A stretch of DNA of 64,000 nucleotides from Diphasiastrum complanatum (Eukaryota > Streptophyta > Lycopodiopsida > Lycopodiales > Lycopodiaceae): assembly GCA_029204225.1 (NCBI GenBank), contig CM055094.1:18553333-18617332 (forward strand). Direction: 5' to 3'. The notes under the pieces are model-generated. The model worked only from the letters and a program-made list of their open reading frames with translations. It had not been told where the DNA came from and did not search any database. Shown one piece after another: positions 1 through 49,819 of this stretch; the first letter of the stretch is position 1, and every line of letters starts with the position of its first letter. Position numbers and translations under genes: made by a program.

Positions 1-547
1 AATATGCAATCGAAATGGGCTCTGATAGCCACTGATCAAAAGAGGAAGTTGGAACTCTATGTGGCTCAAGAACTGGTGTGCCTCCTGGTACCAAGTGTTC
101 ATCTCATAGATATCGAGGCTGAGGACTCTGTTGAAGGTTCGGCTCTGGTATCAGACAAGTGGAGTCTCGGCTCGGTCGACTATGGAGGGCTTCGGATCGG
201 TCGACTTTTGATGGACTCATCTCGGTCAACTTTGTATGCAGAGTATGGACGGTCCACAGTGAATGCAGAGTATGGGGGCTCGGCTCTATGAGTAGTAGAG
301 CATTGCTCGGCAGTGTATGGAGACTAGAAATTTGTGGACAAATTTGGAGCAATTTCGTTCTGATAGGATGTGGAAACGATGATGTTTCTTCATAGTAACG
401 TACTAGTAGCGAGCTTTCAACCAAAATCGGTGTTGAATGTGCGATTTTGACAAGCTCTAGGAGCACTACCCTTCAGCATTTGGCTTGTGCTAGATGTGAC
501 GGTTTTTGTGTAATGTAGCAGATCTCGGCAGCTTAGGGTTTTTGAAA

Positions 548-640
548 ATGGATGATGATGGCGCTCCGGATCCGTGGTGGATGTATGTAGATGGTGTCCA
601 AGGATGCAAAGGAGTAATCAAGCACTATCGTAGCGAATGA
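548..640 (+). CDS. Short conserved ORF, 30 codons, unrecognised
   Basis: Starts MDDDGAPDPWWMYVDG and recurs with few changes in the head of almost every unit (for example near 10835, 14667, 30341, 35104, 38931, 50816 and 61909). It follows a short leader ending in gggtttttgaaa, which resembles a plant 5' leader. It lies about 400 bp from the divergent start of gene L, so the 36-bp minisatellite may sit in a shared promoter. The length is too short to assign a function. It may be the first exon of a gene captured into the head module, or it may be conserved only because the repeats are recent. Confidence 0.3.
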   Translation: MDDDGAPDPWWMYVDGVQGCKGVIKHYRSE

Positions 641-1888
641 TACATCGCCACTAAAAGATGGAAAATCGATCCTTTGAAGCTATAGCTTTTCAAAGCTTCT
701 GAATTTCATTTCCATGCCTGAAGAAGGAAGTGCGAGCATCAAATCTTCTCCCATCAGAGTTTGTTTTCATTTCCTAAAAAGCATGCATGGCAGCATGGCA
801 GTAAAGCGTGATATTGTGATTTTTTGTAATGTTCCCATGTATGTGATGATTTTTATTGTTTAATTATATCGATGTCGATTGAAACTATGATAGCTTCGTG
901 GTTGTCATTCATAATATTAAAAGTTTTTTTTCACCTTATCTTGGGGCAAGTTCACAAATAGCAAGGTAACAAATTGGGACTCGGTAAGAACTCACTCCAA
1001 ATGACTTTTTGAGCTTGACTAACTTATTCTCATGAATTTATCATTGTGTCTAACTTGCCATATACCAGTTTTATAAGTATTTGCTTGATCTTTTACTCTT
1101 AAATGCACCATAATGCTACTCCCTTACTGGCCATAACTTCTTCACCGTAGCTCAGAACTGGGCCATGTTGGGTGTCATTGAAAAAGCTCTCGTCGAGGGC
1201 TTTCTAATGGCACCATAATCGTGTCAATCCAAGTTGTCGTTCAAAAGTTACACTGTTTTTTTTGCTGAGTTGCATACTATACTACAAATAAAATGGCTTA
1301 TTTACGAGCTGCCCCCGACGCAAAATTACAGTTCTTTTAAAAAGAAAAGAAAACCAATTTGAAGGAGCTACGATACGTAGATTTCAAATTTGAGTGTTTT
1401 GATTGGACCATGTGAAAGAAACTTTTGAGAAAAAAAATAAAAGGTATGTTTTTGAAAGGCCCCTTTTGTGCTCAAATTTTCTGTAATGGTTGATAAGTTG
1501 GATTCACATTTACATCATGAAGCAGATAGTCTTGTAAGTTTTCTATTCAAGTGGATCGGAAGCTCGCTCCAATGGATGTTGAGATTAATATATCATGCTA
1601 TCTCTAGCCTAACAGCCACACACTAGATGTTTCGATCCAGAAAATATTCACACAAAGGGACATCACACATCAATATTAATCTACTTTCACCTTTTATTTC
1701 GTCACATCTCTTTGAGCTTATGCGATATGAAAAGCTCCCTTCAAACAAACATGTGAATGTGCCTTTTGTGTTCCCTTAATTTCTCATGCACTACCTTTGT
1801 CTTGGGAAACTAAAATGTGATACAATTGTGACCTTTTCTCATGCTTATCTTTCTCCTATTCTTGGACAAGTAAAATTTGATTGTTGTA

Positions 1889-1945
1889 AGGGGGCGGGGG
1901 GGGGGGGGGGGGGGGGGGGAGGGGGTGTGTGGGGGTGGGGGGGGC
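1889..1945 (+). repeat. G-run, possible G-quadruplex
   Basis: About 50 of 57 bases are G, in several runs of five or more. The same place in U3 (about 15993-16003) has only a short G run, so the length is unstable between copies. Open frames across it, rich in glycine codons, are not genes. Confidence 0.85.
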
Positions 1946-2306
1946 ATGGATTATTCTTGATTTTGAAATGAATGCAGGGCGGGCTTAGTCAAGTCACCTA
2001 GAAAATGGTCACAAGCTCTCCTTTAAGGATGGGATGCTCTATACTTATGACTACAATGCCTCAACGTCCAACCCAAAATAGTACAAATAGAATGCAAACT
2101 GCATTATCGATGTTCTCTGTCCTTCTGATTTTGCCTCTTATTTTCGTCATTTACAGGAGGCTGAAGAGTCTCAGAAAAGGATTGTTGATCTCCAACATCG
2201 GCTTAGGAAGATGGAGCAGGACCTAGAAATGAACATAGTATCGGCGGCTGAGAGAATCCGTTTGGCCAAGATATCATAAACTACGAAATCTATATGCGGA
2301 AGAGAT

Positions 2307-3671
2307 TTGGAGGCACATGATATCAATAATTCGATTCTGGTGGGACGCAAAGATGCGGACAAGTCAGTTCCAACGATGACATCTAATTTGATCGGGAGCT
2401 CTTCTCAGCCAGAATTAATGGCGTCTACCTGTTGGAGAGCTCTAGTCCTCAAAGATACGCACATGAATGAAAGGCTTGAGCAAGCACCAAAGCAAGTCCA
2501 GAATGATCCTTCTTTCGACCCAAGATTTCGTAGAAGACGAGCATGGAGATCGGAAGACAACATATCAGCATATCCTTGCAACTTTGCGATAATAGATGGC
2601 TCGTTCTCTTCTCGGAAGGAATGTCATACATCAATCAATACTTTCTGGGAACTGAGTTCCAATTCTCGCGATCCTACACTCCAGCTACAACACAAGTTCT
2701 GCCAGTTTCTGATGACTGTCATGGGCCAAAGGTTTGAGCAAGATCCACAATTTTCCATCAATCCCAACAAAGCGGTCCTCCACATGGAGGATACCAAGAT
2801 CTATTCACGGATTCAATACTTTCCTGCAGAATCCATACATATCTTCGAAGAGATGTGCACTTCAGGATTTATCATCAATGCTGATGAGGGTTACATGTAC
2901 ACCCAAAGATCAAAAGCATTTACTGGTCGAAGACAAATACTGACTCGAAACTACTTCAACTGGCTACGTGAGCAAAATCATAAGCATGCCAGTAATTCGA
3001 CTCTAATAGGACGAAAAGACGGGTACAAGTCAGTTCCAACGATCGCATCTAATTCGATCGGGAGCTTTCCTCAGCCAGATTTAATTGCGTCGACCGGTTG
3101 GAGAGCTCCATTGCTCAAAGATACGTACGTCTATGAAATGCTTGATCAATCACCAAAGCAAATTCAGAATGATCCTTCTTTCGACCCAAGTTTTCGTAGA
3201 AGACGAGCGCTAGCATGGAGATCGGAAGCCAACATATCAGCATATCCTTGCAACTTTGAGATAATAGATGGCTCGTTCTCTTTTCAGAAGGAATGGCATA
3301 CATCCCTCAAGAATTTTTGCAAATTAACTTCCGATTCTGACGATCCTACAATCAAGCTACAACACAAGTTTTGCCAGTTTCTGAAGACTGTCATGGACCG
3401 AAGGTTTGAGCAGGATCCACAATTTTTCATCAATCCCAACAAACCGGCGCTTCACATGGAGCATACTAGGATCTATTTACGGATACAATACTTTCCTGCA
3501 GACTCCATACAAATCTTCGAAGAGATGTGCACTTCAGGCTTTATCATCAATGTTGATAAGGCTTACACCCAGAGATCAAAAGCATTTGCTGGTCGAAGAC
3601 AAATGCTGACTCGAACCTGCTCCAAGAGGCTGCGCGAGCAATATCGTAAGCATGATGCCCACCATTCCTGA
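2307..3671 (+). CDS. Unrecognised 454-residue ORF made of two tandem halves
   Basis: The protein consists of two similar halves, residues about 9-228 and 231-450; the matching DNA is repeated at a 666-bp interval. Each half carries the order GRKD, FRRRRAW or FRRRRALAW, NISAYPCNF, FEQDPQF, IQYFPA and FEEMCTSGFII, then a basic C-terminal stretch. No signal peptide or membrane segment is visible. Upstream, at 2156, a strong splice acceptor (ttttcgtcatttacag) precedes a heptad-like segment reading EAEESQKRIVDLQHRLRKM, so the ORF may be the last exon of a longer coiled-coil protein. The exon and the ORF are separated by a stop here. The U3 copy (16664-17947) is also open. I do not recognise the family. 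Two open copies make chance unlikely, but expression is unproven. Confidence 0.55.
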   Translation: MEAHDINNSILVGRKDADKSVPTMTSNLIGSSSQPELMASTCWRALVLKDTHMNERLEQAPKQVQNDPSFDPRFRRRRAWRSEDNISAYPCNFAIIDGSFSSRKECHTSINTFWELSSNSRDPTLQLQHKFCQFLMTVMGQRFEQDPQFSINPNKAVLHMEDTKIYSRIQYFPAESIHIFEEMCTSGFIINADEGYMYTQRSKAFTGRRQILTRNYFNWLREQNHKHASNSTLIGRKDGYKSVPTIASNSIGSFPQPDLIASTGWRAPLLKDTYVYEMLDQSPKQIQNDPSFDPSFRRRRALAWRSEANISAYPCNFEIIDGSFSFQKEWHTSLKNFCKLTSDSDDPTIKLQHKFCQFLKTVMDRRFEQDPQFFINPNKPALHMEHTRIYLRIQYFPADSIQIFEEMCTSGFIINVDKAYTQRSKAFAGRRQMLTRTCSKRLREQYRKHDAHHS

Positions 3672-4551
3672 ACAAAGGTTATGAAGAAAATCCTTTAGGC
3701 CCAATTTTTTGTATTGAGTACATTGAAAACATCAACATTTGTTGATTGGAGCTTTTAAGATTGACCATTATAGTCATCTAGGGCCAATGTATATGGCACT
3801 CAACTGCTAATCTATCTCTCCACTGCTTCTGAAATGTCCACTTTAGTTCATAATCTATGATCTAGATATACCTTCTTCTCGTTGTGTGTATATATATGTT
3901 CTCATCATTGATATTTGATTTAATGTATTAAATGACCATTGAATGCTCATTAAATCAAAATCAACATTAATTAGGTTACACATATTCTGTTCAAAAAATA
4001 TTTGGACATACAATGAAAATATCATATCGACAAGAGGGAACATATCAAGGCAACAGGACTAGACAGAAATTGTTTGTTAGTGATCATCCATACAAAGTAG
4101 GTGCACCACTTCCAAATTCTAATGTTACTCCAAGCCTTTTTGTGAGACTACTAATATTTTTGGAAAACACATGGTCTTCATATTCCAAGCATGCTCAGCA
4201 TACCTCCAAGCACATAGCAAAGTAAACCGTACATCTTCTTTCCTTGCCCTACTTGTTGGTCTTCATCTCGTATGGTAAGTACTCGACCCTTGATTGTTCC
4301 TTTGAATAAGAGCTTTTTGCTATAGTTTCAAGAGAGAGGCTTCCTGGGAAAGGGTCAACTTGGGAGTAGCTTAATATATTGATGTCATTTCAAATCATGA
4401 TAGCTTCATGGTTGTCACTCAAAATAACAGTGAATTGTTTGGTCACTTGGGGTAGCTTGATATGTAGCTAGGCAACTAAACAACAAATCACCTCTAGATG
4501 GCTTCACAAGCTTGTCTAACTCGTTCTTATAATTACTACCATTGTGTCTAA

Positions 4552-4885
4552 CTTGCCAAATGCTAGGTGTAAAAGTATTTGACAAATGCGTAACTCTTTA
4601 CTCTCCAAGTCTTAAGACTTACCAAGTGTTGTTTGTAGCTCATACTAGATGCTTTGAGAAGTTATATTAAGAATTGGGGGCGGGGGGGGGGGGGGGGGGT
4701 TATCGCAAAGAATCCGATCTTGCCAAATACTAGGTGTAAAAGTGTTTGACATATTCCTAACTCTTAACTCTCCAAGTGTTGTTTTTAGCTCATAGTACAT
4801 GCTTTGAGAATAATGTTAATGGTTATATTAATTTGGGGGGATTGCAAAGAATCGTACTTGAGTGTACAAGCCCAACTCAAGTGCA
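4552..4885 (+). repeat. 167-bp direct duplication
   Basis: The sequence cttgccaaatgctaggtgta at 4552 returns, one base changed, at 4719, and similarity runs on through the 'tagctcata...gctttgagaa' segment in both. The first unit ends at a G run. U3 carries the same pair near 18831 and 19002. An inverted copy at 47820-48062 has only one unit. Confidence 0.75.
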
Positions 4886-5556
4886 GACACCAACTCAGCA
4901 CACATGGGAAGATCATTAAATTTGAATTTGATGAAAAATCAAAATTAAAAAAAAAATGAAAAACTATTTCTCCTTAGAGGCATTGTGGTCATCATCTAGA
5001 CGAGCTGTGCTTGCTTGAATCAATAGAAACAAAGAAAATAATAATAACGAGTTTTAATCCTATTAATGCACCAATAATATATAAATATAATTGAATCAAA
5101 TGGGAAGATTATAATATTTATCGTTTCATTAAAACATTGATCTACTCATTTCAATGATTTCGTTCAAATTCGAATTCCAATGATTTGTGAAGTGTGAATG
5201 AATGCAATGTAACTTGCATATGTTTGGAACATAGCATAGATTCATTATATGCTTTTTAACTATATGTTATTTAGTCGTGTAACAAGGAATAAGCTTTTTT
5301 TTAAAAACAAATTTTTAATTTGTTTTTGGAAACCCTAGATTACAACATTTTAATATATTAACAAAAATGACTTAATTTGCATGAACAACTTTGAGTTTTG
5401 AAAATCCTAGATTACAACTTCATTCAATCTTCAAATTTCCAAGCTCGTTCAAACTTCAATGAAATATAATTCATTCCAACCTCCATTCTCGAACCCTAGA
5501 ACGATGTATTTTAAAAACTTTTGTAATGTGAAAGAGACATCACTGATTTCGGAATG

Positions 5557-6036
5557 GCTTTCAAAAACTTATAAATTGTATTCATCAATGGAGATGTCTA
5601 GAGGACATGGTGTGAAAAATTTTCAACTAGTTTGGTTTTTTATTTGGCAATTTTAGAGGCCAAAATGAATCTTAACTTCGAGTTAGTTTCATATTTGTTA
5701 ATAAGGGCCTAAATAGTGGTTTAACTACCTCTGGCAAGTAGATAAGTGGATGAGGTCGAGTTTGGACCCATTCTAATTGGCGAATTTTGGTACATTGCTT
5801 TCAAAAACTTATAAATTGTATTCATCAATGGAGATGTCTAGAGGACATGGTGTGAAAAATTGTCAAATAGTTTGGTTTTTCATTTGGCAATTTTGGAGGC
5901 CAAAATGAATCTCAACTTCGAGTTAGTTTCATATTTGTTAATAAGGGCCTAAATAGTGGTTTGACAACCTCTCTTAAGTAGATCAGTGGATGAGGTCGAG
6001 TTTGGACCCATTCTAATTGGCTAATTTTGGTACATT
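5557..6036 (+). repeat. 240-bp direct tandem duplication
   Basis: The two units, 5557-5796 and 5797-6036, both begin gctttcaaaaacttataaat and end near 'ttttggtacattg', with few differences. U3 has the same pair with a period of about 241 bp (from about 19860 and 20101), so the duplication is older than the copying of the large unit. Confidence 0.9.
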
Positions 6037-6466
6037 GCATCTAGACTAGATTTTCTAGGTTTCTGATAAAGTATCTAGAAGTTTCCAAATTAGGTCAAGT
6101 TTGGGGCAAGTGGCCAAATGACATTTTGGAAGCTATAAATAGTTATAACCTAAGTGGAGAAATATTCATCAAAGTTTCTTTCTTTGTGGAGAATGCATCT
6201 CTTATGTCCATCTCATGTGATATTTTTCTTCAAATTCAAATTTAACGATTTTCCCATGTGTGGTGAGTTGGTGTATGCGCTTTTGTTGGGCTTGTACACT
6301 CAAGTTCGATTCTTTGGGATCCCTCGCCAACTGTGGTTTCTATACTTTCTCTGCAAGATTCTCATTTGAAATTTGCTTGGGACCCTTCTTATCTCCATCA
6401 GATATTTTTTTCAACGTTGATGTTAGGCCATACCACAGGGAAGTAGTTCATGTGTGACTCCTCACT

Positions 6467-6470
<4 letters not shown>

Positions 6471-6517
<47 letters not shown>
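6471..6517 (+). repeat. (TC)n microsatellite
   Basis: Uninterrupted CT dinucleotides. The same site is occupied in U3 (20893-20941) and is much longer in U7 (40374-40491). Confidence 0.98.
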
Positions 6518-6520
<3 letters not shown>

Positions 6521-7320
6521 CCACTCAAGCCTACATGGCAGACCCACGTGGTATAGCTTAGTTGGCTTGCCACACAAGCCTACGTTAAGCCTATATGGTA
6601 GACTGAATCATACCAGCATGAACATACTAGCATCAAGCCTATGTCATGCCTATATGACCTACCACGCAAGCCTATGATAGGCCTACATGGCTTGCCACAT
6701 GGCAAGTCCCAAGCCTGTGTGGTTTATCTCATGACATGCCTATATGGCTTGCCACATGGCAACTTGGGAGCCCCAGATCTCTCTCTCTAGCTCCACTCAA
6801 GCCTACATGCCAGAGCTTGGTTGGCTTGCCACACAAGCCTATGGCAAGCCTCTGTGGTAGCCTGAGACATGCTTACGTGGGAAGCATCAGAAATATGCCA
6901 TGCCTATGTGGCCTGCCACACAAGCCTATGGTTTATCTCATGACATGCCTACATGGCTTGCCACATGGCAACTTGGGACCCCCAGTTCTCTCTCTCTAGC
7001 TCCACTCAAGCCTACATGGCAGAGCTTGGTTTGCTTGCCACACAAGCCTATGGCAAGCCTATGTGGTAGCCTACGACATGCTTACGTGGGAAGGATTAGA
7101 AGTATGCCATGCCTATGTGGCCTGCCATGCAAGCCTATGGTAGGCCTGTGTGGGTTGCCAAGTGGCAACTTTTGAGCCCACCTATATATATATATATAGA
7201 TCTCTAGGTCCACTCAAGCCTACGTGGCACAGGGCCCAGTTGGCTTGACATACAAGGTTATGGTAGGCCTACATGGCTTGCAACATGGCAACCCTCAAGC
7301 CTTCATGATTTGCCATGTGG
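6518..7320 (+). repeat. Complex minisatellite, about 207-bp unit
   Basis: Built from variants of CCTAYRTGGCNTGCCACA and CAAGCCTATGG. A larger unit of about 207 bp, opening with 'ctctctctagctccactcaa', is repeated from about 6779 and 6986. The first part, 6518-6770, is made of the same short motifs. Related arrays lie in U3, U7 and U8. Open frames through it encode repeated tryptophan- and proline-rich words and reflect the repeat, not a gene. The array abuts, and slightly overlaps, the 3' end of the histone ORF. Confidence 0.9.
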
Positions 7321-7716
7321 CATACCGCTGCCATAGGTCTTTCGAAACCTCATGACAAGAAGCATGTCCTTGGGCATCAGTGTCACCCTCTTGCCATGAA
7401 TGGAACACAGCATCGAATCCTCAAACAATTTTGTCTGGAAGTCCTCGTATGCAATATGGAGGGCCTCCAATGCAGTGATATTCCACCTCACTGCATAGGG
7501 CAGATGGGTGGTCATGCCTTGTATAACCTCCCTCACAGCCCGGTACAAGGCTGCTTTCAGGATTAGAAGTTTGGTGTACCTCTGCAAGGCCCTGATGTCC
7601 CTCAACCATGGACGGCGAGGTCTTCGGCGTCTTTGCGGACGTATGGGTTCAGATGTCTGATGACGGGACAGTTGAACAAAATGGGTAAGCCTAGTGGTTT
7701 GCTTCGTCCGAGCCAT
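7303..7716 (-). CDS. Histone H3-like ORF, closest in features to centromeric H3 (CENH3)
   Basis: The 137-residue ORF starts MARTKQT like H3. After a short tail rich in arginine and proline come the alpha-N helix (about 38-52, LRDIRALQRYTKLLI), alpha-1 (56-67), a long loop 1 ending RW at 77-78, alpha-2 with FEDSMLCSIHGKRVT (98-112), and MPKD leading into alpha-3 (114-123). Counted between VRE and AL(E/Q)AL, loop 1 is about four residues longer than in canonical H3 and has the Trp typical of plant CENH3. FEDSMLC also matches CENH3. The tail is shorter than in most plant CENH3, and the usual RPGTVAL is reduced to RPW. Plant CENH3 genes have introns; this copy has none. The last dozen codons run into minisatellite sequence. 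It could be a captured or processed gene copy, expressed or not. Histone identity is near certain; CENH3 class is probable. Confidence 0.75.
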   Translation of the reverse strand: MARTKQTTRLTHFVQLSRHQTSEPIRPQRRRRPRRPWLRDIRALQRYTKLLILKAALYRAVREVIQGMTTHLPYAVRWNITALEALHIAYEDFQTKLFEDSMLCSIHGKRVTLMPKDMLLVMRFRKTYGSGMPHGKS

Positions 7717-7785
7717 TGACGCCGGATATCTATACCACGCGAGGACAGAGATACAGCAGAAGAGAGAGCTAAATTGTCTCGCGTA

Positions 7786-8040
7786 ATGGCGACACTGAGA
7801 ACTCTAAGGGTGATATCGCTACAACGCGAGAGAGTGGCAGAGACAAGCGGGGAGAGGCAGGGGCTTGCATGATGGCGATACTGGGAAAGTCAGGCTGATA
7901 TCGCTACAATGTGAGCGGGTGTAAGGAATAGGCCTGGGGACGAGGTCGCTCACATGATGGCGATATCACGAATGCAGGTCATATGGAAGCAATCAAACAT
8001 GACAGCAAATTACGTGAAAACCTATACAATCCCCGGGAAT
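7786..8040 (+). repeat. Three 86-bp direct repeats between promoter and histone ORF
   Basis: The word atggcgaYa occurs at 7786, 7872 and 7957 (spacing 86 and 85), each within similar surroundings that also hold gatatcgct. U3 keeps the same three with the same spacing (22210, 22296, 22381). If the TATA box at 8044-8052 is used, these repeats would form most of the 5' leader of the histone ORF. Confidence 0.8.
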
Positions 8041-8043
8041 GGA

Positions 8044-8052
8044 CTTATATAG
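8044..8052 (-). promoter_or_regulatory. TATA box facing the histone ORF
   Basis: Reads CTATATAAG on the minus strand, about 330 bp before the histone ATG and directly downstream of the G-box array. U3 keeps CTATATAAG at the same place (about 22468-22476). U7 and U8, which have lost the histone ORF, have altered versions. No transcript data are available. Confidence 0.5.
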
Positions 8053-8059
8053 ATGAAAA

Positions 8060-8420
8060 AAGTTGGCACATGTGAATCCCAGCGCCACGTGGCCTAGTCA
8101 ATAGCTGACATGTGGAACCACACGTTTGTATACACGTGTGAAACTGCACGTCTGGATCAACACGTGTGGTATCCCATGTGGGGACACATGGACAAATGGA
8201 TCAGCGACATGTTCTTGCACGTATCGGCTCGCACGTGTGGTCACGTGGCCCAATTAGTAACTGACGTGTGGGACCACACTTCTGTATCTGCACATGTGGC
8301 CATGTGGTCGAATGGTTTGGTCACATGTGTTCTGGCACGTATTAGCTCGCATGTGTGGGCACGTGGCCGAATGGCAGATTGACGTGTATTGTAGCATGTG
8401 TGGACGGTTGTATTACGTGC
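8060..8420. promoter_or_regulatory. Dense array of ACGTG / CACGTG motifs
   Basis: More than a dozen variants of CACGTGTG, CACGTGGC and GACGTGTG lie in about 360 bp, often as near-palindromes such as cacgtgtggtcacgtggc. These match the G-box and ABRE cores bound by plant bZIP and bHLH factors. The array recurs in U3, U4 (part), U7 and U8 and is flanked by divergent TATA boxes. It may be a true bidirectional regulatory block, or a minisatellite whose monomer happens to contain the motif. Confidence 0.6.
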
Positions 8421-8480
8421 CATAGATCTGATCCGATGTTGGATCGACGAATGTACGGCTTGGGTTTTATTGGTTTTAGC

Positions 8481-8488
8481 TATATAAA
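8481..8488 (+). promoter_or_regulatory. TATA box facing right
   Basis: TATATAAA, preceded by attggtt, at the right edge of the G-box array. It is kept in all five copies (8481, 22936, 26542, 41695, 49483). A transcript from here would run antisense through the end of gene I, whose stop codon lies just downstream. Confidence 0.5.
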
Positions 8489-8502
8489 TGTTGTTTGATC
8501 AG

Positions 8503-8817
8503 TTAAAACATTTCGCTAAGTTTTGGATTTTCACTCCCTGTAGCTCTTGGTGTGTGAACCAAATGCCATTCCACCTTAAAATGACCTATTCTAGGAACAT
8601 TGAGTGGTGTGTCGCTCATATGATTCTTAATTATCTCTAAATATTCTGTTTTACTAAAATTCCAAAATAGAATTTCATGATCTTCTTTAAAACCTGTTTG
8701 AAACTTGTTTATGTCTTTCATCCTTTGGTGAGCTGGTAAGGTGGATCCTTTCAGATTTTTTCTCGACAGTGGAGCATATTTTGTGGGAAGATCAATATGG
8801 AGATGATATTTAGACAT
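8503..8817 (-). pseudogene. Remnant of gene I, ends joined by an internal deletion
   Basis: A single 104-codon frame. It joins the first ~35 residues of gene I (MSKYHLHIDLPTKYAPLS...) to its last ~70 (FQTGFKEDHEILFW... to the same stop), with the middle ~1.4 kb missing compared with U4 and U7. U8 has a similar deletion (49505-49819). The frame is open by chance of the junction. I class it as a pseudogene. Confidence 0.7.
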
Positions 8818-14209: not shown

Positions 14210-16210
14210 GTTCTGGACTTGGCTGAGGACTCTGTTGAAGGTTCGGCTCTGGTAACAAACAAGTGGAGTCTCGGCTCGGTCGACTGTCGAGGGCTTCGGA
14301 TCGGTCGTCTTTTGATGGACTCGTCTCGGTCAACTTTGTATGCACAGTATGGACGCTCAGCTCGGTCCATAGTGAATGCAGAGTATGGGGTTCGGCTCTA
14401 TGAGCAGTGTATGTAGAGTATTGCTCGGCAGTGTATGGAGACTAGAAATTTGTGGAAAAATTTGGAGCAATGTCGTTCTGATAGGATGTGGAAACGATGA
14501 TGTTTCTTCGCAGTAACGTACTAGTAGCGAGCTTTCAACGCAAATCGGAGTTGAATGTGCGGTTTTGACAAGCTCCAGGTGCACTACCCCTCAGCATTTG
14601 GCTCGTGCTAGATGTGACGATTTTTGTGTAATGTAGCAGATCTCGGCAACTTTAAGTTTTTAAAAATGGATGATGATGGCGCTCCGAATCCGTGGTGGAT
14701 GTATGTAGATGGCGTCCAAGGATGCGAATGAGTAATCAAGCATTGTCATAGCGAATGATAGATCGCCACTAAAAGATGGAAAATCGATCCTTTGAGGCTA
14801 TAGCTTTTCAAAGCTTTTGAATTTCATTTCCATGCCTGAAGAAGGAAGTGCCAGCATCAAATCTTCTCCCATCAGAGTTTGTTTTCATTTCCTAAAAAGC
14901 ATGCATGGCAGCATGGCAGTAAAGTGTGATATTGTGATTTTATGTAATGTTCCCATGTATGTGATGATTTTTGTTGTTTAATTATATCGATGTTGATTGA
15001 AACTATGATAGCTTCGTGGTTGTCATTCGTAATATTAAAAGTTTTTTTTCACCTTATCTTGGGGCAAGTTCACAAATAGCAAGGTAACAAATTGGGACTC
15101 GGCAAGAACTCACTCCAAATGACTTTTTGAGCTTCACTAACTTATTCTCATGAATTTATCATTGTGTCTAACTTGCCATATACCAGTTTTATAAGTATTT
15201 GCTTGATCTTTTACTCTTAAATGCACCATAATGCTACTCCCTTACTGGCTATAACTTCTTCACCGTAGCTCGGAACTGGGTCATGTTGGGTGTCGTTGAG
15301 AAAGCTCTCGTCGAGGGCTTTCTAATGGCACCGTAATCGTCTCTATTCGAGTTGCCGTTCAAAAGTTACACTGTTTTTTTGCTGAGTTGCATACTATACT
15401 ACAAATAAAATGGCTTATCTTCGGGCTGCCCCGACGCAAAATTACAATTGTTTTAAAAAGAAAAGAAAATCAATTTGAAGGAGCTACGTTACGTAGATTT
15501 CAAATTTGAGTGTTTTGATTAGACTATGTGGAAGAAACTATTGAGAAAAAAAATAAAAGGTATGTTTTTGAAAGGCCCCTTTTGTGCTGAAATTTTCTGT
15601 AATGGTTGATAAGTTGGATTCACATTTACATCATGAAGCAGATAGTCTTGTAAGTTTTGTGTTCAAGTGGATCGGAAGCTTGCTCCAATGGATGTTGAGA
15701 TTAATATATCATGCTATCTCTAGCCTAACAGCCACACACTAGATGTTTGGATCCAGAAAATATTCACACAAAGGGACATCACACATCAATATTAATCTAC
15801 TTTCACCTTTGATTTCGTCACATCTCTTCGTGCTTATGCGACATGAAAAGCTCCCTTCAAACAAACCTTTCCTGTTGCCTTAATTTCTCTTGCACTACCT
15901 TTGTCTTGGGCAACTAAAATGTGATACAATTGTGACCTTTTCTCATGCTTATCTTTCTTCTATTCTTGGACAAGTAAAATTTGATTGTTGTAAGGGGGGG
16001 GGCGGTTTGTATAGTATAGATGGCTATGAGTGTGAAAGGGGCATGGATTATTCTTGACTTTGAAATGAATGGAGAGCGGGCTTATTCAAGTCACCTAGAG
16101 AATGGTCACAAGTTCTCCTTGAAGGATGGGATGCTCTATACATATGACTACAATGCCTCAACGTCTAACCCGAAATAGTACAAATAGAATGCAATGCATG
16201 GAATCTCTCT

Positions 16211-16381
<171 letters not shown>

Positions 16382-20892: not shown

Positions 20893-20943
<51 letters not shown>

Positions 20944-21765
20944 ATTCCACTCAAGACTACATGGCAGACCCACGTGGTATACCTTAGTTGGCTTGCCACA
21001 CAAGCCTATGTCAAGCCTTTATGGTAGACTGCAACATACCAGCATGAACATACTAGCATCAAGCCTATGTCATGCCTATATGACCTACCACGCAAGCCTA
21101 TGATAGGCCTACATTGCTTGCCACATGGCAAGTCCCACACCTGTGTGGTTTATCTCATGACATGCCTATATGGCTTGCCACATGGCAACTTGGGAGCCCC
21201 AGCTCTCTCTCTCTAGCTCCACTCAAGCCTACATGGCAGAGCTTGGTTGGCTTGCCACACAAGCCTATGGCAAGCCTATGTGGTAGCCTGCGACATGCTT
21301 ACGTGGGAAGCATCAGAAATATGCCATGCCTATGTGGCCTGCCACACAAGCCTATGGTTTATCTCATGACATGCCTACATGGCTTGCCACATGGCAACTT
21401 GGGAGCCCCAGCTCTCTCTCTCTAGCTCCACTCAAGCCTACATGGCAGAGCTTGGTTTGCTTGCCGCACAAGCCTATTGCAAGCCTATGTGGTAGCCTGC
21501 GACATGCTTACGTGGGAAGCATCAGAAATATGCCATGCCTATGTGGCCTGCCACGCAAGCCTATGGTAGGCCTGTGTGGTTTGCCAAGTGGAACCTTTTG
21601 AGCCCACCTATATATATATATAGATCTCTAGGTCCACTCAAGCCTACGTGGCACAGGGCCCAGTTGGCTTGACGTACAAGGTTATGGTAGGCCTACATGG
21701 CTTGCCACATGGCAACCCTCAAGCCTGCATGATTTGCCATGTGGCATACCGCTGTCATAGGTGTT
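20893..21765 (+). repeat. (TC)n tract and ~207-bp minisatellite, U3 copy
   Basis: TC repeat 20893-20941, then the same CCTATGTGG / GCCACACAAGCC array as in U1. Its larger units begin near 21205 and 21413 (period about 208). Ends at the histone copy. Confidence 0.9.
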
Positions 21766-22140
21766 TCAAAACCTCATGACAAGAAGCATGTCCTTGGGCA
21801 TCAGTGTCACCCTCTTGCCATGAATGGAACACAACATCGAATCCTCAAACAATTTTGTCTGGAAGTCCTCATATGCAATATGGAGGGCCTCCAATGTAGC
21901 GATATTCCACCTCACTGCACAGGGCAGATGAGTGGTCATATCTTGTGTAACCTCCCTCACAGCCCGGTACAAGGCTGCTTTCAAGATCACAAGTTTGGTG
22001 TACCTTTGCAAGGCCCTGATGCCCCTCAACCATGGACGGCGAGGTCTTTCGCGTCTTTGCGGACGTATGGGTTCAAATGTCTAAGGACGGGATGGTTGAA
22101 CAAAATGGGTAAGCCTAGCGGTTTGCTTCGTCCGAGCCAT
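21766..22140 (-). pseudogene. Second histone H3/CENH3-like copy, interrupted
   Basis: Starts MARTKQTARLTHF and keeps the whole histone fold (LRGIRALQRYTKL, AVRW, FEDSMLCSIHGKRVTLMPKD). It has an in-frame TAG at codon 20 in the tail (22081-22083) and ends right after VMRF, a few residues before the U1 copy. Its second alanine-bearing word, TKQTAR, is the canonical H3 form, whereas U1 has TKQTTR. The TATA box and 86-bp repeats upstream are intact. From the internal ATGs only a shortened fold could be made, so I class it as a pseudogene. Confidence 0.8.
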
Positions 22141-22943: not shown

Positions 22944-22957
22944 TGTTGTTTGATCAG

Positions 22958-24338
22958 TTAAAACATTTCGCTAAGTTTTGGATTTTCACTCCATGTAGCT
23001 CTTGGTGTGTGAACCAAATACCATTCCACCTTAAAATCACCTATTCTAGGAACATTGAGTGGTGTGTCGCTCATATGATTCTTAATTATCTCTGGAGAAC
23101 TAATATCATCTAACTTGGAGAACTAATATCAATTTTTCAACAATTTCGTTTGTGATTCCATAAAACTTTACAATAAATCTCTGTAAATGATTCAGATCTA
23201 CAAACATATTGTTTGTAGAATCATATGACAAAGTGCCATGTTTTGAGTTGTAAATTTCATTGATATGGTAAGGAATACCAATGATGTTTTGCAAACCCCT
23301 GTTTAACACATCCCTCTCTAATTTGATTTGAAAGGGTCGAGGAATAGAAAATTGTTTTATATGTACTTGTCCAAATGCCTCTTTGATAATTTTAAACATT
23401 GTGTCATATGCATCCCTGCTAATACCAGAATAATCACATGCTCCTTGTATCAATTTTCGGTCAATGATCTTGCCGACTTCGCCCATAAGGGCCTCTGCAA
23501 TCTTGGGCTTGATTCGAGAATATCGTTGATTTCCAAGTAGACTCGTCGTTGACTTGGCTGTAAGTACTGCACTCAAGGACTTTCCAATCATGTCCTTGTC
23601 TTTCGGATTTTCCTTGGTGACTAAAGCTGCTCTGCAAAACAAAAATAAGATTTAGAAAAAAAACAATTCGCAACCATTGATGTGCTAGATGAAACAAGAC
23701 ACATGAATATTTTAAAACATAATCTTACTTGAAAGCATATATTCTCTTTGTCCGTTGACCCCCACTTGTTGAGAGCTCATCAATACTTTTTAAAATAACT
23801 CTTTTCTGCTTATTGTTCAGTATTTTCTTCCGTAATGGGTTTACTTCTACATTTATTTGACAATATGAGGTACACAATGTTTGTACAATTAGTTTCATAT
23901 TGTCAGTTCCTTGGTTGAGGTTTAATATAATATCTTGCAAACGAGAATTATCTATCTTCAAGATTTCATTTTCTTTTTTTGTTTGCAAAAAAAAGTTTCT
24001 TTTTCTCGGTAGTCAGTAAGCAAGCCATTCAACATATTTTCCAAACAGTGGATATTTTTCATTGAATTACTAATGCCATAACTTTTCAATCTTTCACAAT
24101 AACCCAATAGACCATTGTGTCCTTCACACAAAAATAGTATGAGTTGTGTGACCGATCTAAAATTTGGATGTTGCATTGAGCTTGGATCGATTGGATACAA
24201 ACTTCCATCAACCCATAGATCACAATGTTTCCTGTCTTTCGTCCTTTGGTGAGCTGGTAAGGTGCATCCTTTCAAATTTTTCCTCGATAGTGGAGCATAT
24301 TCTGTGGAAAGATCAATATGGAGATGATATTTAGACAT
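22958..24338 (-). CDS. Gene I: unrecognised spliced gene with coiled coil, U3 copy
   Basis: The first exon starts MSKYHLHIDLSTEYAPLSRK and includes LWVDGSLYPIDPSSM and LILFLCEGHNGLLGY. It is followed by a heptad-like coiled coil (ENEILKIDNSRLQDIILNL). A 97-bp intron (23632-23728) has donor GTAAG and acceptor ttttgttttgcag and joins two in-phase exons (RIYAFK to AALVTKENPKDKD). The next exon carries NQRYSRIKPKIAEALM and IIGIPYHINEIYNSKHGTL. The start and the coiled coil lie in different frames at an eight-A run in all three long copies, so the gene may be inactive or have another intron. Compared with U4 and U7 part of the 3' region is missing here. I cannot assign the family. Confidence 0.5.
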
Positions 24339-25610
24339 CTTAATAATCGATAGATTAATCTAGTAGAAAACCAACTTGTTATATATCTTGTAAGCTATTA
24401 AAACTTGTCTTAATTATAAAAAAATAATAATTGGAAAAGTTTGAAATGACCTTGGCGCTCTTTTTGATCCATCACACTCCATGTTTCTTGCTTTATATGC
24501 AAAATCAAAGCTTTGTTGTTATGAGCAAAATAAGCAAAATATTTTTTCGATAGATGTGCGTTGAAATTGCAAATTTTTGAATTGCAAAAGTTTGAGATAA
24601 CCTTGCCGCTCCATTTGATCCAACACACTCCGTATTTTCTGAATTTCAAAAATTTAGATTCACGTTGGCGCTCATTGTGATCCAAAATATTCAAAGTTTC
24701 TTGCCATGATTTGCAGATCGATAAGACTGTTTTTCTTTGAGGTAAACGCTTTAGTAGATGGAAAGAAAACTTTGATGTGCAATACGATTTGCATTTACAT
24801 GAGAAGTCATGTTAGTTAATGGTAGAAAATAGAATCTTGAAGTATGGACCCCATGCATTGCGGCTACCCAACTTCCAGTTAACCACATACATTATTAGTA
24901 AGGTTAAGTTATCGGAGTTGTGCGGGCAGACCAAAAACTCGGTCGGAGTTTTAAAATTCGACGATCTTCTCTCTCTTACGTCGCATTTCTAAGACAGCCC
25001 TTTTGGGCCATGGAACTCCTCGAATGTAAACTCCATATCATTTGAGTCTGTTTCATCCGATGAAGCATGACGCTTCGCTTGTATCGATCCTTCGTCCATG
25101 ACATAGAGGACATGGGTGTCTTTCTCGATGTAAGCTTCACTAGGCCGACCGTTTGGTGCTTTGTAGTTGGCCCTTGTGGAGAGAAGGAACTCTTTCTCTT
25201 TTGAGAAGCCGTTTGCATGGAATCTGTTGCAATAGGCCTGGAAGTAGAGTTGGTATTCTTGGCTGGTTCTGAGGGAGTCTCCCACGCTTTTATCTGCTAG
25301 CATGAAGTGGTCTCGAAATCGAGGTCGGTGGCGAATGTGTGGTTTTGACAAGCTCCAGTAGCACTACCCCTTGGCATTTAGCTCGTGCTAGATGTGACGA
25401 TTTTTGTGTAATGTAGCAGATCTCGACAGCTTAGGGTTTTTGAAATGGATGATGATGGCGCTCCGGATCCATGGTGGATGTATGTAGATGGTGTCCAAGG
25501 ATGCGAAGGAGTAATCAAGCACGGTCGTAGCGAATGATAGATCGCCACTAAAAGATGGAAAATCGATCCTTTGAAGCTATGGCTTTCCAAAGTTTCTGAA
25601 TTCCATTTCC

Positions 25611-26354: not shown

Positions 26355-26549
26355 CATGCAAGTTTGGTGACATGTGTTCTGGCACGTGTTAGCTTGCATG
26401 TGTGGGCACGTGGCCGAATGACAGATTGACGTGTATTGTAGCACGTGTGGTCTCACACATGTGGACGGTTGTATTACGCGCCATAGATCTGATCCGTTGT
26501 TGGATCGACGAGTGTACGGCTTGGGTTTTATTGGTTGTATCTATATAAA
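26355..26549. promoter_or_regulatory. Shortened G-box array with right-facing TATA box
   Basis: Only the right third of the ACGTG array remains, plus TATATAAA at 26542-26549. The left-facing TATA box and the histone ORF are absent from this unit. Confidence 0.5.
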
Positions 26550-26563
26550 TGTTGCTTGATCAG

Positions 26564-28267
26564 TTAAAACATTTCGCGAAGTTTTGGATTTTCACTCCCT
26601 GTAGCTCTTGGTGTGTGAACCAAATTCCATTCCACCTTAAAATCACCTATTCTAGGAACATTGAGTGGTGTGTCGCTCATATGATTCTTAATTATCTCTG
26701 GATATTCTGTTTTACTAAAACTCCAAAATAGAATTTCATGCTCTTCTTTAAAACCTGTTTGAAATACAAAATCATGAACTATTTTAAGAGAATTGAACTC
26801 AGACCTATAATAACAAAACAATATTAGCTTAAAACACAAAACCATTAATTCTCGAAATGAATGAGTTGCTAGTACTCAATAGAATAGAGTTAAACCTGGA
26901 AAGCTGCCAACCACCAAATATTATTTTCGGACTGCACACTGAAATTAAGACTCTCCGAGTTTATCGTATTGCTTAATGTTCCATTCATAAGTGTAACACT
27001 AACCCTTTCCAGCTTTTGTCCCTTTATTTCTTCTGATTCATCTAACTTGGAGAACTAATATCATTTTTCAACAATTTCGTTTGTGATTCCATAAAACTTT
27101 ACAATAAATCTCTATAAATGATTCAGATCTACAAACATATTGTTGGTAGAATCATATGACAAAGTGCCATGTTTTGAGCTATAAATTTCATTGATATGGT
27201 AAGGAATACCAATGATGTTTTTCATACCCATGTTTAAGACATCCCTCTCTAATTTGATTTGAAAGGGCCGAGGAATAGGAACTTGTTTTATATGTACTTG
27301 TCCAAATGCCTCTTTGATAATCTTAAACATTGTGTCATATGCATCCCTGCTAATACCAGAATAATCACATGCTCCTTGTATCAATTTTCGGTCAATGATC
27401 TTGCCGACTTTGCCCATAAGGGCCTCTGCAATCTTGGGCTTGATTCGAGAATATCGTTGATTTGCAAGTAGACTCGTCGTTGACTTGGCTGTAAGTACTG
27501 CACTCAAAGACTTTCCAATCATGTCCTTGTCTTTCGGACTTTCATTGGTGAATTAAGCTGCTCCGCAAAATAAAAATAACATTTAGAAAAAAACAATTCA
27601 CAACCATTGATGTGCTAGATGAAACAAAACACATGAATAGTTTAAAACATAATTCTACTTGAAAGCATATATTCTTTTTTTCTGTTGACCCCCACTTGTT
27701 GAGAGCTCGTCAATACTTTTTAAAATAACTCTTTTTCGCTTATTGTTCAGTATTTTCTTCCGTAATGTATTTACTTCTACATTTATTTGACAATATGAGG
27801 TACACAATGTTTGTACAATTAGTTTCATATTGTCAGTTTCTTGGTTGAGGTTTAATATAATATCTTGCAAACGAGAATTATCTATCTTCAAGATTTCATT
27901 TTCTTCTTCTGTTTGCAAAAAAAAGTTTCTTTTTCTCGGTAGTCAGTAAGCAAACTATTCAACATATTTTCCAAACAGTGGATTTTTTTCATTGAATAAC
28001 TAATGCCATAACTTTTCAATCTTTCACAATAACCCAATAGACTATTGTGTCCTTCACACAAAAATAGTATGAGTTGTGTGACCAATCTAAAATTTGGATG
28101 TTGCATTGAGCTTGGATCGATTGGATACAAACTTCCATCAACCCATAGATCACAATGTTTCCTGTCTTTCGTCCTTTGGTGAGATGGTAAGGTAGATCCT
28201 ATCAGATTTTTTCTCGACAGTGGAGCATATTCTGTGGGAAGATCAATATGGAGATGATATTTAGACA
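26564..28267 (-). pseudogene. Gene I, U4 copy
   Basis: Includes the 3' region missing from U3: a segment ending SENNIWWLAAFQ, an intron-like gap, then a last exon FKEEHEILFWSFSKTEYPEI to the stop near 26564. At the site matching the U3 start codon the ATG is replaced, and the acceptor of the 97-bp intron is altered (gcgg instead of gcag). This copy is therefore probably not functional, although most of its coding segments are well kept. Confidence 0.55.
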
Positions 28268-40373: not shown

Positions 40374-41010
<637 letters not shown>

Positions 41011-41017: not shown

Positions 41018-41702
41018 TGCAGAGACAGGTGGGGAGAGGCAGGGGCTTGCATGATGGCGATACTGGGAAAGTCAGGCTGATATCGCTACGACGTGAGAGG
41101 GTGTAAGGAATGGGCTTGGGGACGAGGTTGCTCGCATGATGGCGATTTCAAGAATGCAGGTCGTATGGAAGCAATCAAACATGACAGCAAATTACGCGAA
41201 AACCTATACAATCCCCGGGAATGGAATTATATAGGAGAAAAAAGTGGGCACGTGTGAATCCCAGCGACACGTGGCCCAGTCAGTAGCTGACATGTGGAAC
41301 CAAATGTTTGTATATGCATGTGTGAAACTGCACGTCTGGATCAACACGTGTGGGATCCCATGTGGGGACACATGGCCGAATGGACCAGCGACATGTGTTC
41401 TTCCACGTATTGGCTTGCACGTGTGGTCACGTGGCCCAATCAGTAACTGACGTGTGGGACCACACTTATGTATCCGCACGTGTGAAACTTGCACATGTGG
41501 CCATGTGGTCGAATGGTGTGGTGACGTGTGTTCTTGCACGTGTTAGCTCACACGTGTGGGCACGTGGCCGAATGGCATATTGACGTGTATTGTAGCACGT
41601 GTGGTCTCACATGTGTGGACGGTTGTATACGCGGCATAGATCTGATCCGCTGTTGGATCGACGAGTCTACGGCTTGGGTTTTATTGGTTTTAGCTATATA
41701 AA
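41018..41702. promoter_or_regulatory. 86-bp repeat remains, G-box array and TATA boxes, U7 copy
   Basis: Two of the 86-bp units are left. The left-facing TATA box is altered (CTATATAAT). The ACGTG array runs 41240-41630 and the right-facing TATATAAA is at 41695-41702. With the histone ORF deleted, the left-facing promoter would read into minisatellite. Confidence 0.5.
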
Positions 41703-41716
41703 TGTTGTTTGATCAG

Positions 41717-43421
41717 TTAAAACATTTCGCTAAGTTTTGGATTTTCACTCCCTGTAGCTCTTGCTGTGTGAACCAAATTCCATTCCACCTTAAAATCACC
41801 TATTCTAGGAACATTGAGTGGTGTGTCGCTCATATGATTCTTAATTATCTCTGGATATTCTGTTTTACTAAAAATCCAAAATAGAATTTCATGCTCTTCT
41901 TTAAAACCTATTTGAAACACAAAATCATGAACTATTTTAAGAGAATTGAACTCAGACCTATAATAACAAAACAATATTAGCTTAAAACACAAAACCATTA
42001 ATTCTCGAAATGAATTAGTTGCTAGTGCTCAATAGAATAGATTTAAACCTGGAAAGCTGCCAACCACCAGATATTATTTTCGGACTGCACACTGAAATTA
42101 AGACTCTCCGAGTTTATCATATTGCTTAATGTTCCATATATAAGTGTAACATTAACCCTTTCCAACTTTTGTCCCTTTATTACTTCTGATTTATCGAACT
42201 TGGAGAACTAATATCAATTTTTCAACAATTTCATTTGTGATTCAATAAAACTTTACAATAAATCTCTATAAATGATTCAGATCTACAAACATATTGTTGG
42301 TAGAATCATATGACAAAGTGCCATGTTTTGAGTTATAAATTCCATTGATATGGTAAGGAATACCAATGATGTTTTGCAAACCCCTGTTTAACACATCCCT
42401 CTCTAATTTGATTTGAAAGGGCCGGGGAATAGGAAATTGTTTTATATGTACCAGTCCAAATGCCTCTTTGATAATTTTAAACATTGTGTCATATTCATCC
42501 GTACTAATACCAAAATAATCACATGATCCTTGTATCAATTTTCGGTCAATGATCTTGCCGACTTCACCCATAAGCGCCTCTGCAATCTTGGGCTTGATTC
42601 GAGAATATCGTTGATTTCCAAGTAGACTCGTCGTTGACTTGGCTGTAAGTACTGCACTCAAAGACTTTCCAATCATGTCCTTGTCATTCAGATTTTCATT
42701 GATGACTAAAGCTGCTCTGCAAAATAAAAATAAAATTTAGAAAAGAACAATTCACAACCATTGATGTGCTAGATGAAACAAAACACATGAATAGTTTAAA
42801 ACATAATCCTACTTGAAAGCATATAATCTTTTTTTCCGTTGACCCCCACTTGTTGAGAGCTCGTCAATACTTTTTTAAATAACTCTTTTTCGCTTATTGT
42901 TCAGTATTTTCTTCCGTAATGTGTTTACTTCTACATTTATTTGACAATATGAGGTACACAATGTTTGTACAATTAGTTTCATATTGTCAGTTTCTTGGTT
43001 GAGGTTTAATATAATATCTTGCAAACAAGAATCATCTATCTTCAAGATTTCGTTTTCTTCTTTTGTTTGCAAAAAAAAGTTTCTTTTTCTCAGTAGTCAG
43101 TAAGCAAACCATTCAACATATTTTCCAAACAGTGGATTTTTTTCATTGAATAACTAATGCCATAACTTTTCAATCTTTCACAATAACCCAATAGACTATG
43201 GTGTCCTTTACACAAAAACAGTATGAGTTTGTGACCGATCTAAAATTTGGATGTTGCATTGAGCTTGGATCGATTCGATACAAATATTCATGAACTCATA
43301 GGTCACAATGTTTCCTGTCTTTTGTCCTTTGGTGAGCTGGTAAGGTGGATCCTTTCAGATTTTTTCTCGACAGTGGAGCATATTCTGTGGGAAGGTCAAT
43401 ATGGAGATGATATTTAGACAT
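41717..43421 (-). CDS. Gene I, U7 copy
   Basis: The most complete copy: MSKYHLHID start at 43421, coiled coil (ENEILKIDDSCLQDIILNL), intron with intact acceptor ttttgcag, the NQRYSRIKPKIAEALM exon, the SENNIWWLAAF-type segment, and the last exon ending NPKLSEMF. The intron donor is GTAGG, weaker than GTAAG in U3. As in the other copies, the first exon and the coiled coil are in different frames around an eight-A run. Status as a working gene is uncertain. Confidence 0.45.
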
Positions 43422-48521: not shown

Positions 48522-49490
48522 TTGAGCCCACCTATATATATATATATATATAGATTTCTAGGTCCACTCAAGCCTACGTGGCACAGGGCCCGGTTTACTT
48601 TACATACAAGGTTATGGTAGGCCTACATGGCTTGCCACATGGCAACCCTCAAGCCTGCATGATTTGCCATGCGGTAGACCTACGTGGCTTGCCATGTGGT
48701 AGTGTGCGATAGGCTTTGCAAATAGCAGACCACGTAGGCAGAGCCTGGTTGGCTTGCCAGCCTATGATGGGCCTACGTGGCTAGCCCCAAGCCTGCATGA
48801 TTTGTCACATGGTAGTCATACGTGACTTGACACGTGGACACCTATGACAGCCTTGGTCAATCGCATGCCTATGTGGCCTGCTACACAAGTCTATGGTAGG
48901 CCATGTGATAAACCACACAAGCCTATGGTAGGACTATGTGGTTGTAGTTGTAGCCGCAACTCGTCGTATGTTGACCTTTCTGAAATCCTTGGAATCACCG
49001 GCCATTGTACAATCCCCCGGAATGGACTGATATAGGAGAAAAAAGTTGGCACGTGTGAATCCCAGTGACACGTGGCCCAGTCAGTAGCTGACATGTGGAA
49101 CCACACGTTTGTATACGCATGTCTGAAACTGCACGTCTGGATCAACACGTGTGGGATCTCACATGGGGACACGTGGCCGAATGGATCAACGACATTTGTT
49201 CTTGCACGTATCGGCTCGCACGTGTGGTCACGTGGCCCAATCAGTACTTGACGTGTGGGACCACACTTCTGTATCCGCATGTGTGAAAGTTGCACATGTG
49301 GCCATGTGGTCGAATGGTTTGGTGACGTGTGTTCTGGCACGTGTTAGCTCGCATGTGTGGGCACGTGGCCGAATGGCAGATTGACGTGTATTGTAGCACG
49401 TGTGGACGGTTGTATTACGCGCCATAGATCTGATCCGTTGTTGGATCGACGAGTGTACGGCTTGGGTTTTATTGGTTTTAGCTATATAAA
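48522..49490. promoter_or_regulatory. Minisatellite remains, G-box array and TATA box, U8 copy
   Basis: Minisatellite motifs 48522-48960, with a different unit order from the other copies. They join at 'caatccccc' to the region of the left-facing TATA box, which is degraded here (CTATATCAG). The ACGTG array is 49040-49420 and TATATAAA is at 49483-49490. The histone ORF and 86-bp repeats are absent. Confidence 0.6.
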
Positions 49491-49504
49491 TGTTGTTTGA
49501 TCAA

Positions 49505-49819
49505 TTAAAACATTTCGCTAAGTTTTGGATTTTCACTCCCTGTAGCTCTTGGTGTGCGAACCAAATACCATTCCACCTTAAAATCACCTATTCTAGGAAC
49601 ATTGAGTGGTGTGTCGCTCATTTGATTCTTAATTATTTCAAGATATTCTGTTTTACTAAAAATCCAAAATAGAATTCTATGATCTTCTTTAGAACTTGTT
49701 TGAAACTTGTTTCTGTCTTTCGTCCTTTGGTGAGCTGGTAAGGTGGATCCTTATAGATTTTTTCTCGACAGTGGAGCATATTTTGTGGGAAGATCAATAT
49801 GGAGATGATATTTAGACAT
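49505..49819 (-). pseudogene. Remnant of gene I, U8 copy
   Basis: First and last exon parts joined by an internal deletion at nearly the same place as in U1 ('aacttgttt..tgtctttcgtcc'). The shared join suggests U1 and U8 inherited one deletion event. Confidence 0.65.

Follow-up and report, generated by a model that had tools for sequence, protein, structure and literature searches.

The open reading frame (ORF) for a histone-like protein found in the 64-kb stretch of the Diphasiastrum complanatum genome analysed here (hereafter the window: contig C3, positions 18553333-18617332 of a 1.74-Gb genome) is probably the truncated 5' part of a gene from a multi-gene mobile element family, termed family A, with the fuller gene being resident in the element lineage. 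Residence, and not recent arrival as a passenger, is the better reading for the histone, because the protein and genes adjacent to it are common to families A and B, and related folds occur in two other families, C and D. A broader interpretation is put forward tentatively: that a lineage of multi-gene DNA transposons may encode its own CENH3-like histone, fused to an effector domain and selected across the splits between families, with which it would build or mark its own chromatin, possibly of a centromere-like kind.

Among the open reading frames of the window, the histone-like ORF occupies positions 7303-7716 on the reverse strand and is 137 codons long. The product matches the Pfam histone family (PF00125, 1.7e-22), and its best sequence matches in the PDB are Cnp1 (CENP-A) and H3. 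An AlphaFold model of it (mean pLDDT 78.7) has helices at 36-46, 54-68, 80-107 and 115-124, and all 50 PDB matches listed by Foldseek for this model are chains from nucleosomes or histone octamers. The H3 histone fold, with αN and α1-3, is present according to the Pfam, AlphaFold and Foldseek results, in agreement with an earlier description made from the sequence alone (the sequence-only reading), which had pointed to an intact H3 fold, a MARTKQT start and a loop 1 about four residues longer than that of H3. The latter two features are likewise seen in the 137-residue product, which begins MARTKQTTR and has a loop 1 four residues longer than in H3. The terminal Trp typical of plant CENH3, which the same reading reported, is not there: the protein ends in ..MPHGKS, and its only Trp residues are at positions 37 (RPWLRD) and 78 (VRWNIT). 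A protein search with the ORF retrieved one close relative (P0001, D. complanatum O6H91_14G014700, 78% identical), which is recorded as a protein-coding gene for a hypothetical protein on contig C14, followed by general H3-like proteins; a phage search with the same query gave no match.

The start of the element gene is represented by codons 1-130, at which point homology to the element ends. Three observations indicate that the tail of the ORF (7303-7326), comprising the last seven codons, GMPHGKS, and the stop, is satellite-like rather than part of a histone: the homology to dispersed copies elsewhere in the genome ceases at 7327-7329, a histone-free satellite stretch at 48521-48680 matches positions 7171-7326, and the junction between codon 130 and the satellite is identical in all eight of the array copies fetched (L001-L008). 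The segment at 117-8638, which contains the ORF, recurs at 14221-23093 as three blocks with 92-95% identity. This repeat adjoins tandem repeats of 209 bp and 240 bp, and copia sequence is found elsewhere in the window, consistent with the earlier placement of the ORF inside a repeat near minisatellites and retroelements. The window contains several broken copies of ORF B, another gene of the element, and of the histone's upstream region (Table 1).

Table 1. Element-derived and repeat features of the window, in window coordinates
Feature	Position	Strand	Basis
Codons 1-130 of the histone ORF, derived from the element	7327..7716	-	PF00125, AlphaFold/Foldseek, homology limit at 7327-7329
Satellite-like tail of the ORF (GMPHGKS, stop)	7303..7326	-	Satellite match; junction in 8/8 array copies
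Upstream (promoter-side) sequence of the histone gene, derived from the element; TATATAAG at -335 relative to the ATG (8044-8051)	7717..8559	-	
Second truncated copy of the histone gene, interrupted in frame by TGA and TAG	21730..22140	-	Genome search table
Fragment of the histone gene upstream region, without histone	26362..26620	-	
Fragment of the histone gene upstream region, without histone	41019..41773	-	
Fragment of the histone gene upstream region, without histone	49006..49561	-	
ORF B of the element, no Pfam family	23106..23642	-	
Further copy of ORF B	27112..27522	-	
Further copy of ORF B	42266..42676	-	
ORF C, from the upstream portion of the element gene region; not detected in any of the 20 dispersed loci	24989..25351	-	
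209-bp tandem repeat, satellite side of the junction	6720..7141	.	
Repeat unit holding the histone ORF, repeated at 14221-23093	117..8638	.	

Other features of the window were also recorded. A complete copia retrotransposon at 52311-58170, with LTRs that are 99.7% identical, a TG start and CA end, a 5-bp target duplication (TTTAC) and an intact gag-pol of 1316 codons on the reverse strand (52959-56909), is a recent insertion. The array unit has a gene of its own, a long ORF made up of two similar halves, present on the forward strand at 2307-3671 and 16664-17947; neither copy has a Pfam match above the cut-off, the first has no NCBIfam match, and the ORF is absent from the 20 dispersed loci described below. 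Long (CT/TC)n runs also lie within array units (16204-16377, 6471-6517 and 40375-40492), the first of which gives rise to spurious Ser-Leu ORFs.

A count of genomic copies, which the sequence-only reading had proposed as a check, returned 6464 first-look candidates when the genome was searched with the ORF. All 150 of the places that were scored among these match with at least 80% identity and an E value of 1.1e-62 or better, which excludes a chance ORF and is not the pattern of a low-copy host gene such as CENH3. The scored copies are distributed over 20 of the 23 contigs C1-C23, as well as some small contigs. By hand count of the 150 scored rows, 90 lie in arrays, at 18.5-21.8 Mb (a dense array) and 29.9-30.2 Mb on C3 and at 49.4-49.9 Mb on C14, while 60 are dispersed; internal stops interrupt 30 of the former and 25 of the latter. 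Twenty of the dispersed copies, hand-picked in favour of long open frames, were fetched with their flanks, and the array set consisted of eight top scorers and the second copy in the window (nine copies); the two sets are therefore not matched. One of the dispersed loci (L017), the site of which is identical to that of L014, was dropped from the codon-position analyses and neutral simulations.

In the dispersed copies of family A, the histone continues past codon 137, by way of a basic, NLS-like linker rich in Ser/Pro and including PPRKKRKQ, into a further domain. The longest stop-free exon 1 frames extend to 330-357 codons in four of the 20 dispersed copies, the others being broken earlier, and in the fuller copies a frame-keeping GT-AG intron is predicted after about codon 345-357; the description of the ORF as intronless therefore applies to the window copy and does not extend to the fuller gene. 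Of the 20 dispersed loci, 17 have a piece of exon 2 and 18 a piece of exon 3 downstream, on the histone strand. A search with the 345-residue exon 1 protein found 11 proteins, each covering 27-37% of the query, and an AlphaFold model of the long protein, built from 10 alignment rows, was unusable (mean pLDDT 35.6).

The fuller gene is accompanied by others in a recurrent layout. ORFs B0, B and B2 are located upstream on the histone strand in eight, nine and seven of the 20 dispersed loci, having been found in nine, 10 and seven; for ORF B, the 10 loci with homologues include nine in which it is on the histone strand and nine in which it lies upstream of the histone. ORF E is present in 13 loci, being antisense in 12 and upstream in 12, and ORFs F and G each lie downstream in 13, in antisense orientation. 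As the fetched loci are 9.9 kb long, some elements are incomplete in these data. None of the element ORFs tested has a Pfam or NCBIfam match above the curated cut-off, and none is a recognisable transposase.

A sharp right end can be discerned in 11 of the 20 dispersed loci, in 10 different flanks, and the sequence AACTCCTCTAATG is exact in seven of these 11. A left end is visible in four loci, two of which represent one duplicated site, with CATTAGAGGAGTT being exact in three of the four; at no single locus are both exact. These ends look like terminal inverted repeats, but the left end falls inside the ORF C of the window copies, and the visible left ends of the dispersed loci begin within ORF C, for which reason it may not be the true end of the element. 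The terminal repeat was absent when the window was searched for it, and inspection by eye of the three independent loci with both ends (L013, L014 and L022) revealed no target-site duplication.

Individual dispersed loci have some further features. An upstream element ORF on the forward strand of L021 (965-1411), containing CLYC and LHGEVRIMKKL, appears transposase-like by eye, and has no Pfam match. One element copy at L024 has, within it or close by, three occurrences of a roughly 985-bp segment, in stretches matching L013 6781-7755. At L019, a second divergent histone fold, 54% identical, is encoded in the opposite orientation (8473-8757, reverse strand) approximately 3 kb from the family A copy.

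Four divergent families with a histone fold were distinguished: A, that of the window; B (L047, L050 and L052); C (L049); and D (L042-L046, L048, L051 and L053). The latter three emerged from a search of the genome with Arabidopsis CENH3, in which they ranked after 13 canonical H3 genes. Families A and B can be aligned over 294 residues at 33% identity (E 9e-39), including the C-terminal domain, and family B has ORF B beside its histone (L050; 53% over 108 residues, E 6e-41), as well as ORF E (E 2e-9) and the exon 3 piece (E 5e-10). Family C has the histone and the start of the linker in common with A (50% over 162 residues). Family D resembles A in the fold (43-46%), its histone being C-terminal and preceded by a Gln/Pro-rich region, and the link between the two through ORF E is weak (E 0.003). 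In one family D locus, L048, the open frame includes MAWTKQTTR close to its beginning. The putative kinship of C and D to A is based on the histone fold and, for C, also on the beginning of the linker. A further divergent histone-fold frame was encountered at C3:15240400-15240680 (L055), which is perhaps a fifth family or a decayed copy.

The C-terminal domain, which is conserved between A and B, contains in its exon pieces the motifs IPY..HW....IS.., ..MNS.. and Q.D.FSCGWY, as read by eye; in the family B copy that was read, a stop codon stands in the place of the W of HW. To the eye, these resemble the motifs of Ulp1/SENP proteases (His, Asp and Gln-Cys), except that Asn replaces Asp. The pieces of the domain and the joined exons had no relevant match in Pfam or the PDB, and the similarity of a profile of the domain to SENP1 was not significant (E 0.25). 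An identification as a Ulp1/C48 peptidase was set aside on the grounds that no family profile or solved structure was matched, and the motif resemblance is kept as a lead.

The divergence between the four families provides the clearest information on selection. Synonymous differences between them have reached saturation (pS 0.71-0.92), with pN at 0.26-0.43 and amino acid identity at 40-62%. The residues R69, R83, H113, K115, R116, T118, K122, D123, L126 and R129 of H3, which we take to touch DNA or to hold the H3-H3 interface, are the majority residues at these positions in all four families. As neutral drift to saturation leaves no alignable protein, and as the choice of matches cannot create such a pattern, these codon comparisons show that purifying selection acted on the histone as the families diverged; for mobile DNA, such retention is unusual.

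For 19 dispersed copies of family A, third positions account for a share of 0.47 of the changes in the fold core, against 0.31 (sd 0.03) in a plain neutral simulation, in which none of 300 runs reached as high a value; the NG86 dN/dS of the core is 0.26 across 20 dispersed copies. Neutral simulations that mimic the choice of the best, mostly stop-free protein matches yield third-position shares of 0.40-0.48, and at similar divergence the value is 0.41 (sd 0.03, largest 0.47). As these simulations produce a nearly equal excess, the excess in family A is not taken as a signal of selection, and it is largely explained, mostly or wholly, by the choice of copies. The proportion of dispersed copies with stops is close to that in the neutral simulation for the dispersed set (0.43). 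In the parts of exon 1 outside the query, changes at the three codon positions number 49/59/71 in the linker and 113/120/150 in the next part, a modest lean towards the third position in family A, and 34/34/36 in the intron; exon 2 has no third-position excess (62/50/53) and an intron-like divergence. Divergence is lowest in the fold core and linker (0.066) and higher in the remainder of exon 1 (0.095), the intron (0.106), exon 2 (0.123) and the sequence further on (0.127).

The third-position share of the nine array copies is 0.28, compared with 0.32 in the neutral simulation, 225 of 300 neutral runs being as high. The dN/dS of their core is 0.61, and four of the nine contain stops, against an expected proportion of 0.28. 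The lack of a third-position excess, combined with the truncation and the fusion to satellite, means that the window subfamily, found in the arrays on C3 and C14, fits a neutral-looking, dead passenger. This had been one of the options in the sequence-only reading and is upheld for the window copy. Neutral evolution of all copies, which the same reading had regarded as incompatible with its proposal, is apparent in the window subfamily; in the rest of family A any signal is inseparable from the choice of copies, and between families the histone is constrained.

These neutral features would also be anticipated if a host CENH3 or H3 had recently been taken up by a transposon and then multiplied as a functionless passenger. 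The window subfamily is truncated, selection within family A cannot be separated from copy choice, stops are frequent in the dispersed copies, and there is a published precedent in Pseudocercospora fijiensis, which has 784 H3-like copies carried by a hAT element (PMC6710886). Such a recent capture nevertheless seems unlikely. The two host H3 genes compared with family A are only 46-48% identical to it, figures that would leave room for a CENH3 parent, but the histone recurs in diverged families in which synonymous sites are saturated and nucleosome residues are kept, and A and B both join the fold to a second, conserved domain. The recent capture and amplification of host CENH3 envisaged in the sequence-only reading is not supported, the copies instead being part of an old and diversified element lineage. 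It is still less probable that a host family of H3-variant genes was spread by segmental duplication and became associated with transposons secondarily, as, despite one copy being recorded as a protein-coding gene (O6H91_14G014700) and the C3 and C14 arrays resembling tandem or segmental duplications, the places are scattered over most of the large contigs, the gene layout is repeated at independent loci and partly in two diverged families, and the sharp right ends lie in different flanks.

The relationship of the element histones to H3 and CENH3 was studied using a tree of 38 rows, unrooted and with bootstrap values that had not settled, which included 13 of 120 listed CENH3 sequences, all from angiosperms, and no lycophyte CENH3; four rows (P0030, P0022, P0004 and D_L043) were removed beforehand. 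The element histones form their own branch (93/79, just short of firm support), the 13 angiosperm CENH3 another (100/98), and H3 together with other eukaryotic proteins a third (96/88). Being unrooted, the tree does not tell which two of these groups are closest. The sequence-only reading had proposed such a tree, in which a position firmly among canonical H3 would have counted against it; the element histones are placed apart from canonical H3, and they are not inside the angiosperm CENH3 either.

More detail is available from the 19 alignment columns that separate H3 from angiosperm CENH3. At these, family A has eight CENH3-like residues, three H3-like and eight that are neither, which sustains the earlier claim of an amplified, divergent H3-type histone distinct from canonical H3; the corresponding figures are six, three and 10 for family C, and four, six and nine for each of B and D. 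Pro63 and Ala65 are common to CENH3 and all four families. The mean identity of the families is about equal to H3 (0.45-0.53) and to CENH3 (0.45-0.49), and against three host H3 genes it is 45-53% in the fold, unlike the near-invariance of canonical H3 and H3.3. Relative to H3, loop 1 is four residues longer in A, one longer in B and of equal length in C and D, while the first eight residues after the Met in most family A copies are the ARTKQTAR of H3. A CENH3 origin of the element histones is no more than suggested, as host CENH3 was not recovered in the searches described below.

Host CENH3 was not found among the best 150 of 5403 places retrieved with the Arabidopsis CENH3 query, which comprised 13 canonical H3 genes and then element-type copies, nor among the best 150 of 4612 retrieved with a 50-residue C-terminal query, which comprised H3-like exons and element copies; absence of the gene from the genome is not claimed on this basis. 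Four candidates were rejected, L054 and L056 being broken H3-like exons, L055 the further divergent histone fold mentioned above, and L057 a family B copy.

The CENH3-like residues of A and C, the Pro63 and Ala65 of all four families, the extended loop 1 of family A and the dense array on C3 are what might be expected were the element to encode a centromere modifier, that is, a CENH3 derivative that enters centromeric nucleosomes, such that the element targets or perturbs centromeres, as drive or as a niche. This is improbable, given that B and D are more H3-like than CENH3-like, loop 1 is H3-like in C and D and only one residue longer in B, the window ORF has no C-terminal Trp and dispersed copies occur on many chromosomes. 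Some centromere role of the element protein is possible.

Under the preferred reading, in which the fuller histone gene is resident in the element lineage, the fuller protein would consist of an H3-like tail (ARTKQTAR), an H3/CENH3-like fold, the NLS-like linker and the conserved C-terminal domain. It could enter the nucleus by means of the linker and, through its intact fold, pair with host H4 and so enter or dock on nucleosomes. The C-terminal domain would thereby be brought to the chromatin of the element or of the host, and the element might benefit through help with its expression, insertion or shielding. The copy in the window would have lost this domain through truncation at codon 130 and fusion to satellite, and the truncated form would then have been multiplied as a dead passenger in the arrays on C3 and C14.

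Host chromatin silences mobile elements, and mobile elements sometimes target host chromatin, but we know of no mobile element that keeps its own histone variant. Among the matches listed in the open-licence literature, none concerned several transposon families with a conserved H3-variant gene among their regular components. Should the element histone enter nucleosomes, it could let the element influence where it inserts, the state of its own chromatin or the identity of centromeres, and the element would offer a test case for H3 variants such as CENH3 turning selfish. A further implication is that element copies, of which O6H91_14G014700 is an example, may be included when CENH3-like genes are counted in clubmoss genomes.

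Plant CENH3 resembles the element histones in its H3 fold, in Pro63 and Ala65, in the RW of loop 1 (A and C) and in the acidic D of the ED(F/Y) motif (A, B and C). By contrast, the element histones are present at high copy number in mobile elements, begin with ARTKQTAR in most family A copies, occupy their own branch of the tree and have a conserved C-terminal domain, and the window ORF ends without the terminal Trp. A histone fold within a selfish genome is also a feature of large DNA viruses (Clandestinovirus, medusaviruses and marseilleviruses), and Foldseek found matches to the window ORF in BFVD; however, identity to the best viral match is 24%, and the clubmoss case is that of a plant mobile element with an H3/CENH3-like sequence. 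Ulp1-type protease genes are carried by certain plant DNA transposons, namely KI-MULE/Kaonashi and some CACTA elements. The clubmoss accessory protein, with His-Trp, Asn-Ser and Gln..Ser-Cys-Gly motifs as judged by eye, may be comparable to these, and differs in being fused to a histone fold and in having no significant match to a protease family.

A close parallel is with the H3 genes captured by fungal transposons (PMC6710886): the copies in P. fijiensis are derived from canonical host H3 and have been inactivated by RIP, and those in Pyrenophora tritici-repentis, likewise captured by a transposon, number in the tens and are recent. As in the clubmoss, an H3-type sequence is found in a DNA transposon in tens or hundreds of copies. 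Unlike these fungal genes of canonical origin, the clubmoss histone is divergent and occurs in several old families, two of which (A and B) join it to a second, conserved domain.
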